The notes under the pieces: generated by a model | What the model was told of the DNA's origin: nothing | Databases searched by the model: none | What the model saw: the letters and a program-made list of their open reading frames with translations, nothing else | In this document: positions 1 through 4,527 of the stretch, piece by piece | Layout: every line of letters starts with the position of its first letter | Numbering within the stretch: the first letter of the stretch is position 1 | DNA from: Thermovirga lienii DSM 17291 | Lineage (GTDB): Bacteria > Synergistota > Synergistia > Synergistales > Thermovirgaceae | DNA length: 64,000 nucleotides | Direction of reading: 5' to 3' | Assembly (NCBI GenBank): GCA_000233775.1 | Contig: CP003096.1 | Span: 372,001 to 436,000 of the forward strand | Position numbers and translations under genes: made by a program

Positions 1-666
1 CATGACCGCCAGCCTGTCGCAAACGGACAGGGCAAGGGGAAGGTCATGAGTTACCATGCATAAAGTCATTTGGTTTTTCTGAGTTATCTCCTTTAGCAGC
101 AAGATTATTTCGGCCTGGGTTATCACATCTAGTGCAGTTGTAGGTTCATCGGCCAGTAGGCATGGAGGCTTGCAGGCTAAGGCCATGGCTATGGCCGCTC
201 TCTGCTTTTGCCCTCCGGACAGTTCATGGGGGAAACGATCTAAGAAACTTTTAGGCAGTCCCACCATCTTCAAAAGCTCCTCTGACTTTTCAAAAGCCTC
301 TTTCCACAAGAAACCCAGGTGATGGACCAATACTTCCGATATCTGCCTACCTATGGTCAAGACAGGGTTGAAAGAGCTCATGGCTCCCTGAAGGACCATG
401 GAGCATTTTCTCCAGCGGAAGGACTGCAGGGCCTTGTCGTCCAGGGATGTAACGTCTGTTTCTTGGAATATTATTTGCCCTGAAAGCATCGCTTCTGGAG
501 GTAGAAGCCTCATTATGCTGTGAAGTAGGGTGCTTTTGCCGCTGCCCGATTCTCCTACGATTGCCGTGGCCGACCCATAAGGAATGTGAAAGTTTATGTT
601 TTTTAGGGCCGCTACGGTTCCCCTTGGGGTTCTGTACGAGACCGACAAAGATCTAAGCTGTATCAT
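1..666 (-). CDS. Peptide-type ABC transporter ATP-binding protein (DppD/OppD-like), C-terminus outside the window
   Basis: Nucleotide-binding subunit that would hydrolyse ATP on the cytoplasmic face to drive uptake of a peptide-like solute. The visible 222 residues carry Walker A (GESGSGKST), the ABC signature (LSGGQKQR), Walker B followed by the D-loop (LLADEPTTALD) and the H-loop (VTHDL). The start is the ATG at 666, whose ATGA overlaps the stop of the upstream permease, so the two are translationally coupled. The gene runs off the left edge, so its C-terminal oligopeptide-binding extension cannot be checked. The order binding protein, two permeases, ATPase is the usual Dpp/Opp order. Family call is secure; the substrate is unknown. 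Confidence 0.93.
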   Translation of the reverse strand, partial: MIQLRSLSVSYRTPRGTVAALKNINFHIPYGSATAIVGESGSGKSTLLHSIMRLLPPEAMLSGQIIFQETDVTSLDDKALQSFRWRKCSMVLQGAMSSFNPVLTIGRQISEVLVHHLGFLWKEAFEKSEELLKMVGLPKSFLDRFPHELSGGQKQRAAIAMALACKPPCLLADEPTTALDVITQAEIILLLKEITQKNQMTLCMVTHDLPLALSVCDRLAVM

Positions 667-1865
667 CTTTTGCCACCACCTCTGAGCCTGGGATCGGCCA
701 TTTCCTCCAGGGTTCTGCCCAAGTCCAGGAAGACGAGACAGATTAGGGATATGCCAACGCCTGGTGGAAGTATCAGCCACCAAGCACCTGTAGTGAATGC
801 CCCGAAGCCATGGGCCTCATTGAGCATTCGCCCCCATGAAATTATCCTTGGGTCTGAAAGTCCCAGGAAGGATAAACCAGCCTCTGCCAAGATGGCTGAG
901 GGTACTCCTAGGGCTATATTTGCCAGGAGGATTGGAAGACTCTCAGGCAAAAGGTGTCTGTACATGATGTAAGAGGGCCTGGCGCCCAAGGCCCTCAATC
1001 CCTCAACGAAGGCGCTTTCCCTTAGGGAGAGAGTAAGGGACCTTATTGTCCTTGCCGTTCCCATCCAGGAAAAGATGCTCAAGATGACTATAAGCTGCCA
1101 TAGACCCTTCCCCCATATTCCAGCAAGGACCATCAGTATGGGGAGCCCAGGTATGGCTAGGAGTATGTCCACCAGCCTCATTAAGATGGTGTCCACCATT
1201 CCTCCTGCATAGCCTGCCACCAATCCGACGGAGACCCCTAGGAGTGTCGCCAGTATTGTGGCACAAATTCCTACCAGCAAAGACACCCTTATTCCCAACA
1301 GGAAAAGGTGAAATACGTCCCTTCCCCTTTGGTCTGTTCCCAAAAGTCCCCATCTGGCCCCCTCTATTCTCACGTGGATTGCTCCAGATCGGATGTCCAA
1401 ATCGTCCGGAGACATCCTAAGAGTATATTTCCCTTTTGATGGAAAGAGCTTCTCCATGGGATTGTCGAAGGGTGACAAACCAAGGGAAGTCTTAAAGCTC
1501 ATGTCTCTTCCATCTATATCCACATTAAAGGAAGGGAGGTCTTCGTTTCTTGCAATTTCTATCCTATCTCCATCGGGTGTTTCCCACACCAAGGATGCAC
1601 TAGAGGGCTTGTTCAGTTCCACGGTGCCCCATATGGCGATGTTCGGTGGGGCAGGGTAAACCCATTGGAACTGGGCCGCCCTCGTCTTCGGAGTCAAAGT
1701 GAACGTCATGGCAGGAGGAGAATCCTTTCCTATCCATAGAGGCTTGGAAAAGGGCGAAGCTACCTGAGTCTCAGCGTTCATGTCGAACAAGCTAGGTCTC
1801 CAAATGCCCGCCAAAATAAACCCTATCAAGAGCCAGAAACTGAAACGCCTTAGGAGCCTTTTCAT
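663..1865 (-). CDS. Peptide-type ABC transporter permease (DppC/OppC-like) with an enlarged extracytoplasmic domain
   Basis: Inner-membrane permease of a Dpp/Opp-type importer, 400 residues. One N-terminal membrane segment (about residues 8-25) is followed by roughly 145 hydrophilic residues, and the typical permease core begins near residue 178 with GTDQRGRDVFHL. The EAA-type cytoplasmic loop (EGLRALGARP) that contacts the ATPase follows. DppC/OppC proteins usually have a much shorter segment between the first membrane helix and the core, so about 100 residues are extra here. It overlaps both neighbours by ATGA, giving tight coupling in a four-gene operon. The function of the extra domain is unknown; it may contact the unusual binding protein encoded upstream. 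Confidence 0.9.
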   Translation of the reverse strand: MKRLLRRFSFWLLIGFILAGIWRPSLFDMNAETQVASPFSKPLWIGKDSPPAMTFTLTPKTRAAQFQWVYPAPPNIAIWGTVELNKPSSASLVWETPDGDRIEIARNEDLPSFNVDIDGRDMSFKTSLGLSPFDNPMEKLFPSKGKYTLRMSPDDLDIRSGAIHVRIEGARWGLLGTDQRGRDVFHLFLLGIRVSLLVGICATILATLLGVSVGLVAGYAGGMVDTILMRLVDILLAIPGLPILMVLAGIWGKGLWQLIVILSIFSWMGTARTIRSLTLSLRESAFVEGLRALGARPSYIMYRHLLPESLPILLANIALGVPSAILAEAGLSFLGLSDPRIISWGRMLNEAHGFGAFTTGAWWLILPPGVGISLICLVFLDLGRTLEEMADPRLRGGGKR

Positions 1866-2845
1866 TCCATTTTCCTCCCAAGCCTTATCCTAGGATCTAC
1901 CAGGCCGTATGCGAAATCGGCAGCTAGGTTGCATATTATGGTTATAATGGCTAAGAGGTAGAAGGCTGCCCCGGCGGCAGGGTAGTCATGTCCCAGTATG
2001 GAGTCAAGCAGGAATTTACCCACACCGTGTAGAGAGAAGACCGTCTCTGTTATAACAGCACCGGAAAGGATCCCGGGAAGGGCCAAAAGGAACATGGTCA
2101 CTATGGGCGGTAGGGAAGCCCTGAACGCATGTCCCCAAAGAACCTTGTTTTCTGGGAGCCCCTTTGCCTTTGCCAGGAGGATGTAGTCCTCCGACAAGGT
2201 CTTGATCATGAGGTTTCTAACGTAGATGGCCCATGAGCCAAAGCCCAAGAGGACCAGGGATGAAATGGGTAAGGTCATGTGCCACAAAAAATCCCATAAA
2301 GCCATTATCCCTTCAGGCGGTGGAACCGATAAAGACCCCCTTATGGGGAATATGGGGATGGCCCACCCAAACACCAGGAGCAAGACAAGCTGAACGAAGA
2401 AGGAAGGAAAGGAAAAGGAAATGGATCCGGCCACTAAAACCACCTTCTCCAGGACGCCTCCTCTTTTGTGAGCTGCCTTCACCCCTAGCCATGTCCCTAG
2501 TGCGGCAGAGAGCAAAAAAGCCGTTCCCAAAAGGAATACCGTGTTGGGGATTCTGGTTTTAAGCTCCTCCCACACGGGCTTTTGGGACAGGAAGGAATGG
2601 CCGAAGTTGAAGGTGACCAGGGATTTTACGTAAAGGTAAAACTGCCTATAAAGGGGCAAATCCAGGCCAAACTGGGATCTGAGGTGCATCTTTGCCTGGG
2701 GAGAAAAATGAGGATCTATGATGGTGCTAACAGGGTCGCCTGGCATTATGCGAAACAAGAAGAAATTTAGTACGAGCACCATCAAGAGTACCGCTATGGA
2801 TCCTGCTATGCGCTTAGTCCAGTAGTTTCGAAAAATTCTAGTCAT
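1862..2845 (-). CDS. Peptide-type ABC transporter permease (DppB/OppB-like)
   Basis: Partner permease of the preceding subunit, 327 residues, with an N-terminal helix and the conserved N-terminal segment FFLFRIMPGDP found in DppB/OppB proteins, followed by the six-helix permease core. The EAA-type loop is present (LLAKAKGLPENKVLWGHAFR). An in-frame TTG lies three codons upstream, but I chose the ATG at 2845 because it forms an ATGA overlap with the stop of the binding-protein gene, the same coupling seen at the next two junctions. Length and motif order are normal for the family. Substrate cannot be read from the permease. Confidence 0.92.
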   Translation of the reverse strand: MTRIFRNYWTKRIAGSIAVLLMVLVLNFFLFRIMPGDPVSTIIDPHFSPQAKMHLRSQFGLDLPLYRQFYLYVKSLVTFNFGHSFLSQKPVWEELKTRIPNTVFLLGTAFLLSAALGTWLGVKAAHKRGGVLEKVVLVAGSISFSFPSFFVQLVLLLVFGWAIPIFPIRGSLSVPPPEGIMALWDFLWHMTLPISSLVLLGFGSWAIYVRNLMIKTLSEDYILLAKAKGLPENKVLWGHAFRASLPPIVTMFLLALPGILSGAVITETVFSLHGVGKFLLDSILGHDYPAAGAAFYLLAIITIICNLAADFAYGLVDPRIRLGRKME

Positions 2846-4527
2846 CTTTTCCAATATCCATCATACCTTATCAAGTGCACAAATTCTCCCGGCTTGTACT
2901 CCGTAAAGATGAAAGGGCCAGTTCCTATAAGTTGAGTTAGTTTAGGGTCATTGGGGTTATTAAGCCTTTCCGGTCTCCAGCTCTTCCAGTCCTTCACGTT
3001 CCTCAGGAGGTGAGCTGGGAATATAGGTAGGCCTCCTATGTTGTGCAAGTACCAGTAGCTTGTCCTATCCAGGGTCACTATGACCTCCTGGCTGCTCGGT
3101 GCCTCAACGGATATTACGTGGTTCACCTGATCGAAGTACCTGGGAATTTCATGTTTCTTTAAATATAAGATTGTCTCTTTTACGTCCTCTGCCGTGAAGG
3201 GTTTACCGTCTTGCCAAGTGACGCCTTTCCTCAGGTGGAATCTGAGGATCGTCGAGCTGTTTTCGCCGGTACCCTTGGTCTCTACGGACCACTGCTTCGC
3301 AAGCCATGGCACATCATCCATGGTGTAGGGATCGGTGGCAATCAAGGATTCATATATAAGGCCCAAAACGGACCAATCGTAGGCAGAGCTTGCGGCCAGG
3401 GGATTCAGGGTCCTTGGGTCCTCCGGCAGGCACCAGTATAGGGGCCTCATTTTGCCCGCTTTAGGCTCCATGTTGAGAAGGCTCCACATGTTGTCTGCTG
3501 TGGTCTTCTTGGAGTATATGACTCCTTTCCAGTCTTTTCGTATGGCGGATATCATGTAGCGGGAGTATATGGGAATCCACGGGGCCTTTTCAGATAGCAT
3601 TCTCTGGGCCTCTTTCGCATAAGCGGTCGCCGATTCCTTGTCCTTGGCCCAACGGAGCTTCTCCAGGACTTCATCTATTGCTTGGTCGTGCAGGCCTTGG
3701 ATGTTGTACCCTCCCTCCGTGTCCATGGATGAATGGAAGAAAGCAAACAGGTTGTCAGGGTCGCGGCTGAGGCTCCAGGCCATAACGAAGAGGTCAAAGT
3801 CGTGCTTGTCCAGGCGTTTTATCATCATGGAAAAATCCAGCATCTGTAGTTCCACTGGCAGTCCAAGGCTCACGAAAGAATCGACTATTCTTGCAGCCAG
3901 TTCCGCCGTGGTAGGCGCTGCCTGGGCAGTAGGGCAGAGGAGGTATACCTTTTTCAGGGGCTTGTCTTTCCCTGGAGGTATCAGCACTCCTTCTTTGCTC
4001 CATCGCCATCCAGCCTCGGATAGGATGGACCTTGCCTTATCTGGATCGTAATCGTAATGGGTAACGTTGGGTTCGTAATAGGGCGAGACAGGAGGCAGGT
4101 ATGTAGACACAGGCATGCAGTACCCTGCGAACAGGTCTCTCACTATTTTCTTCCTGGGCACGGCATGGGAGAGAGCTTTTCTGAGTGCCAGGTCATTCCA
4201 TGGAAACTCCCTTAGGTTGAACCCCATGAAGAATATGTGAAAGCCTTCAGATAACGTCAACAGAATATCGTCTCTTGCTGCAAGCCTCTTAATGTCCACA
4301 GGCCTTATTATGTCACTCAAAACGTCCAGTTTTCCGGTCTCCAATGCGAGGATCTGGGAGTCAGGGTCTCTGTATATGACCATGTACAGATCTTTGATCT
4401 TTGGTCCCCTGATGCTGTTTATGTCTATTTTCCCGTCCATTCCCATGGACGGAGCCGATGACAAGGAGGAAACGCAGACGATAAACGTTACGATAAATAA
4501 AAAATATGTCCTAAGGGCTTTCGTCAT
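2842..4527 (-). CDS. Family 5 extracellular solute-binding protein, apparently circularly permuted
   Basis: Secreted binding protein for the adjacent importer, 561 residues. The start is the ATG at 4527, with AGGGAG nine bases upstream and a typical signal peptide (hydrophobic core LFIVTFIVCV, likely cut after SSA). No lipobox is seen. The block order is abnormal. The segment that normally lies in the middle to C-terminal part of DppA/OppA proteins (GKLDV, then FMGFNLREFPWNDLALRKAL and the DPDKARSILSEAGW block) comes straight after the signal peptide. The segment that normally starts the mature protein (PEDPRTLNP, LIYESL, LRKGVTWQDGKPFTAEDV, GTGPF, YDGYW) forms the last 203 residues. The end (DGYWKR) and beginning (GPKIKDLYMVIY) join as consecutive sequence in ordinary family members. 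The frame is uninterrupted, so this reads as a permuted protein and not as a broken gene. Confidence 0.88.
   Translation of the reverse strand: MTKALRTYFLFIVTFIVCVSSLSSAPSMGMDGKIDINSIRGPKIKDLYMVIYRDPDSQILALETGKLDVLSDIIRPVDIKRLAARDDILLTLSEGFHIFFMGFNLREFPWNDLALRKALSHAVPRKKIVRDLFAGYCMPVSTYLPPVSPYYEPNVTHYDYDPDKARSILSEAGWRWSKEGVLIPPGKDKPLKKVYLLCPTAQAAPTTAELAARIVDSFVSLGLPVELQMLDFSMMIKRLDKHDFDLFVMAWSLSRDPDNLFAFFHSSMDTEGGYNIQGLHDQAIDEVLEKLRWAKDKESATAYAKEAQRMLSEKAPWIPIYSRYMISAIRKDWKGVIYSKKTTADNMWSLLNMEPKAGKMRPLYWCLPEDPRTLNPLAASSAYDWSVLGLIYESLIATDPYTMDDVPWLAKQWSVETKGTGENSSTILRFHLRKGVTWQDGKPFTAEDVKETILYLKKHEIPRYFDQVNHVISVEAPSSQEVIVTLDRTSYWYLHNIGGLPIFPAHLLRNVKDWKSWRPERLNNPNDPKLTQLIGTGPFIFTEYKPGEFVHLIRYDGYWKR

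Follow-up and report, generated by a model that had tools for sequence, protein, structure and literature searches.

The protein encoded on the minus strand at positions 2842-4527 of the window, the 64,000-nucleotide stretch of Thermovirga lienii DSM 17291 contig CP003096.1 that was analysed, is, judged from its sequence, a natural circular permutant of the SBP_bac_5 (PF00496) fold. The best explanation, which we hold to be highly probable, is that it serves as the DppA-like solute-binding protein (SBP) of an SBP-DppB-DppC-DppD-DppF importer. The order of the family, N-A-B, is uniform in all comparable solved structures, whereas here a permuted form, A-B-N, is conserved across most of Synergistota. 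In the literature searched, mostly papers available without subscription, no published permuted family-5 SBP was found, and the nearest precedent is TpMglB-2, a member of another SBP class.

Block order of the permuted gene

The gene is an uninterrupted frame of 561 codons that starts with ATG, and it is divided as follows.

2842-4527 (minus strand): circularly permuted family-5 SBP, order A-B-N, 561 amino acids
4444-4527 (minus strand): predicted signal peptide, approximately residues 1-28
3493-4407 (minus strand): blocks A and B, residues 41-345, equivalent to the C-terminal part of DppA/OppA
3448-3492 (minus strand): internal join of the natural C- and N-terminal regions, residues 346-360
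2845-3447 (minus strand): block N, residues 361-561, equivalent to the opening part of mature DppA/OppA

The order of the PF00496 profile is reversed along the gene. In the Pfam search, residues 42-266 match profile positions 146-362; blocks A and B cover this part together with the C-terminal extension, and block N, which ends in ...GTGPF...YDGYWKR, matches positions 3-144. The match reaches 223.9 bits against a curated cut-off of 32.4 (E 4e-66); by its reversed profile order, the protein is a permuted relative of the family rather than a member with the canonical linear domain order. In phmmer searches, the DppA and NikA chains of the PDB are matched with their C-half first and their N-half second, and a family profile of 64 sequences runs in the same reversed sense against the listed PDB chains, including DppA, NikA, and OppA. 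The preliminary description, made from the sequence by eye, had proposed this swapped order and had named a normal order of the separately aligned halves as the result that would speak against it; both halves are found in the reversed order. It had also placed the internal join at about residues 340-360, which agrees with the present limits of about 345-362, and had recognized a signal peptide, to which the N-terminal sequence, the low model confidence of residues 1-31, and the same feature in relatives all point. A lipobox cysteine is not conserved in the permuted family.

A rotation test, in which the mature sequence was cycled through its positions and each version was scored against normal-order proteins, bears out the circular permutation itself. 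Upon rotation, the score rises from 257 to 392 for E. coli DppA, from 211 to 346 for NikA, and from 305 to 412 and 276 to 405 for two other normal-order proteins; the cut that scores best falls at residues 341-389 overall and at 341-361 for E. coli DppA. Shuffled sequences reach a maximum of 47-62, and a normal-order control does not gain by rotation (612 vs 612). The rotated protein aligns with E. coli DppA over 482 positions, of which 114 are identical, and no gap separates the new ends (YDGYWGTKPQI in DppA and YDGYWKR+GPKI in the window protein). This combination of restored collinearity and a gap-free new junction is the signature of a circular permutation. It also carries a warning that pipelines based on collinear alignment read such proteins as two halves.

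AlphaFold, run on 64 sequences, predicts the fold with a pLDDT of 91.7 and a pTM of 0.88, low confidence being limited to the signal peptide. The join stretch (residues 345-367) is well ordered in the predicted model and comprises 22 residues in 49 of the 64 sequences. The best 50 Foldseek matches in the PDB are of the DppA, NikA, AppA, or OppA type, each aligned over one block (288-346 columns) with TM values by query length of 0.40-0.47, and none of them is aligned end to end or has the same block order. As a sequential aligner, Foldseek cannot align more than one block of a permuted chain at a time, and these partial alignments fit the permutation. The preliminary description had suggested that the new termini lie on a different face; by the domain limits of OppA, the new ends would fall in domain I, as do the natural ends.

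Distribution of two permuted orders

Full-length homologues with A-B-N order were found in 108 of the 188 Synergistota genomes, representing 46 of 63 genera, and nearly all of these genomes have a single copy; a few of the 108 matches are fragments at contig ends. The survey of this phylum suggested in the preliminary description thus finds the same order widely. The permuted gene is the sole SBP_bac_5 gene of the window genome, and the closest named relative, also from Thermovirga, is 78% identical. The order is also present in metagenome-assembled genomes (MAGs) of Bacillota, in at least 27 of 399 genomes of one group, which is a lower bound as three candidates were scored per genome. In the scan of named genomes, all complete homologues of at least 35% identity are A-B-N, and more distant matches in Omnitrophota and similar phyla have the normal order. 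A contig scan with the family alignment recovered homologues, while a scan with the single protein gave none.

Among closely related pairs, dN/dS is 0.04-0.33 in each of the two halves, although synonymous sites are saturated in the most distant pair; at the level of sequence comparison, these values show purifying selection on both. Together with the intact operon and the confidently predicted fold, these values agree with the earlier proposal that the gene is functional. In the Bacillota MAGs, tandem pairs of A-B-N SBP genes were also observed (L087 4739-8599, L088 1-3666, and L135 1572-5432).

A second permuted order, B-N-A, was found among the normal-order controls. These SBPs belong to the same family as the window protein and are likewise permuted, but their cut lies in the C-lobe and not behind YDGYW. 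Signal peptides are present in those read, and genes for Dpp-type permeases are present in the flanks read.

L131 1116-2798 (minus strand): B-N-A SBP, in one of 188 Synergistota genomes
L133 757-2319 (minus strand): B-N-A SBP
L152-L176: B-N-A SBPs
L191 2-1543 (plus strand): B-N-A SBP

The tree requires three origins of B-N-A (bootstrap range 3-3), with L131 and L191 on long branches, suggesting that this order arose on three or more occasions in Bacillota and Synergistota. The largest B-N-A clade comprises about 25 genomes of the Bacillota group. It branches from within a set of normal-order relatives (L177-L183) of approximately 52-60% identity, and hence the states before and after the permutation both survive. 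Such re-cut siblings with fairly close unpermuted relatives form natural before/after pairs that make the evolution of permutation testable. Moreover, 12 sampled Bacillota genomes carry both A-B-N and B-N-A permutants.

The importer and its additional DppC domain

The five genes of the operon are consecutive and all on the minus strand; the preliminary description had already pointed to an operon position of the SBP gene.

1862-2845 (minus strand): DppB-type permease
663-1865 (minus strand): DppC-type permease, 400 amino acids, with an inserted periplasmic domain
1356-1778 (minus strand): additional all-beta periplasmic domain of DppC, approximately residues 30-170
1-666 (minus strand): DppD-type ATPase, which runs past the window edge and continues in L031
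L031 8949-9881: DppF, after DppD

The likely ATG of DppB overlaps the stop codon of the SBP gene (ATGA), an arrangement that suggests translational coupling of the two. The operon has the composition of a Dpp/Opp-type importer, with an SBP, two permeases, and two ATPases with oligo_HPY, the latter scoring over the cut-off in DppF and under it in DppD. The five-gene order is kept in relatives; at some of these loci a gene appears to be absent, either because the contig stops there or because ORF selection favoured a frame overlapping it on the opposite strand. Among the genes flanking the operon, which were examined for a clue to the substrate, none is constant in the loci read. Several kb past the DppF end, genes read by eye as an IS200/IS605-type TnpA/TnpB pair and an IS256-like transposase lie at L031 1915-3435 (plus strand) and 578-1801 (minus strand).

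By analogy with DppA, the permuted SBP most likely captures its solute in a cleft and delivers it to DppBC: it would fold as a bilobed trap, bind the solute between its lobes, and hand it over as DppA does. It shares its sequence family and operon type with DppA, OppA, and NikA (cluster C, PF00496), but differs from them in its order, A-B-N against N-A-B, and in the lack of conserved counterparts of R383 and D436, which form the dipeptide clamp of E. coli DppA (PMC12136057). The aligned positions hold A and S in the window protein. These clamp residues give no clue to the substrate: most normal-order relatives in the comparison do not conserve them either, which makes their absence uninformative. 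The protein scores 109 bits with the NCBIfam equivalog for dipeptide-binding DppA, against a cut-off of 1005. A conserved R255 motif is also present in unpermuted proteins, although these were retrieved with the R255 motif itself.

TpMglB-2 (Tp0684) of Treponema is a permuted glucose-binding protein of 'Type Ic / Cluster Bc' that keeps ligand binding and closure, and permutants of its type occur in two clades, one of spirochaetes and one mainly of Gram-positive bacteria (PMC4990184). It resembles the window protein in being an ABC-importer binding protein with a naturally permuted chain. However, it is a type I/cluster B sugar SBP with an N-lobe permutation and a lipoprotein with another cut site, and its permuted part is reported to retain little sequence similarity, at 13% identity (PMC4990184), whereas both blocks of the window protein are clearly homologous to their counterparts. 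The window protein, with its PF00496 match, belongs to cluster C and not to Cluster Bc. Natural permutants with different termini could also provide material for biosensor design.

The recurrence of permutation and the additional domain of DppC are the most interesting parts of this system. About 165 residues lie ahead of the conserved DppC core in the window, compared to 74 in E. coli, whose DppC does not have the beta domain, and 42-98 in most normal-order and B-N-A operons; at the B-N-A loci L174/L185, L175, and L184 the stop-to-stop frames of DppC are longer and their start codons unsettled, which makes absence of the domain there uncertain. The domain is predicted with a pLDDT of about 95, its fold matches are weak and to nucleoplasmin-like sandwiches, and sequence profiles of DppC match solved permeases from residue 167 onward only. 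Permuted operons of Synergistota in which DppC is complete have the domain, and the extension is longer, approximately 280 residues ahead of the core, in the A-B-N operons of Bacillota. Beyond E. coli, the domain is missing from nearly all other operons seen.

We propose that this domain contacts the permuted binding protein, which it may dock or guide. Since the A-B-N proteins form a single clade, finding the DppC domain alongside them amounts to one event, and the association may be simple shared descent within that clade. It is accordingly an evenly balanced possibility that the permutation is neutral, the protein working exactly as DppA, and that the DppC domain is an unlinked feature of the lineage. 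The example of TpMglB-2, a natural permutant of another SBP class that keeps binding and closure (PMC4990184), is in line with such neutrality. On the other hand, both branches, Synergistota and Bacillota, retain the domain, whereas nearly all normal-order and B-N-A operons seen are without it, including a normal-order operon on a Bacillota contig (L135) that has permuted copies nearby. A broader and more tentative reading, to which we give clearly less weight, combines two claims: that family-5 SBPs are prone to circular permutation, with at least four independent events in two phyla and at two cut sites, and that the permutation of the oldest clade co-evolved with a new docking domain of DppC that meets the re-cut SBP.

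Origin of the permuted gene

Trees of the proteins rearranged to the canonical order place the A-B-N members in a single clade with a support of 100/100 and a clean split between Synergistota and Bacillota, and each half alone also recovers this clade (99 and 93). The simplest reading of these trees is one ancient permutation event. The gene ancestral to the A-B-N family of present-day Synergistota and some Bacillota would have had its original C- and N-termini joined through a short linker, with new termini arising in the loop after the YDGYW motif, possibly by duplication, fusion, and trimming. The preliminary description had favoured a tandem duplication with loss of the outer parts; no intermediate of such a duplication was found, and no left-over SBP fragments that could be its traces were seen beside the permuted genes.

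The half-trees, which have long branches, disagree on a clear sister group, so the protein could instead be a fusion of halves from two SBP_bac_5 genes, the C-part of one and the N-part of the next in tandem. Neighbouring SBP genes do occur, as seen in the tandem permuted copies of Bacillota. This origin is nevertheless improbable, since both halves each form a single A-B-N clade and both the new and the old ends match DppA, with nothing missing or doubled; one permutation of a single gene is the preferred reading. An assembly or sequencing error that joined two genes is effectively ruled out, because the order and the join are common to more than 100 separately assembled genomes, including single-contig chromosomes.

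A fragment of about 150 residues resembling block B of the permuted family was also observed at the end of a Myxococcota MAG contig (L097 6968-7447); it may represent contamination or a misjoin, and was left out of the counts.
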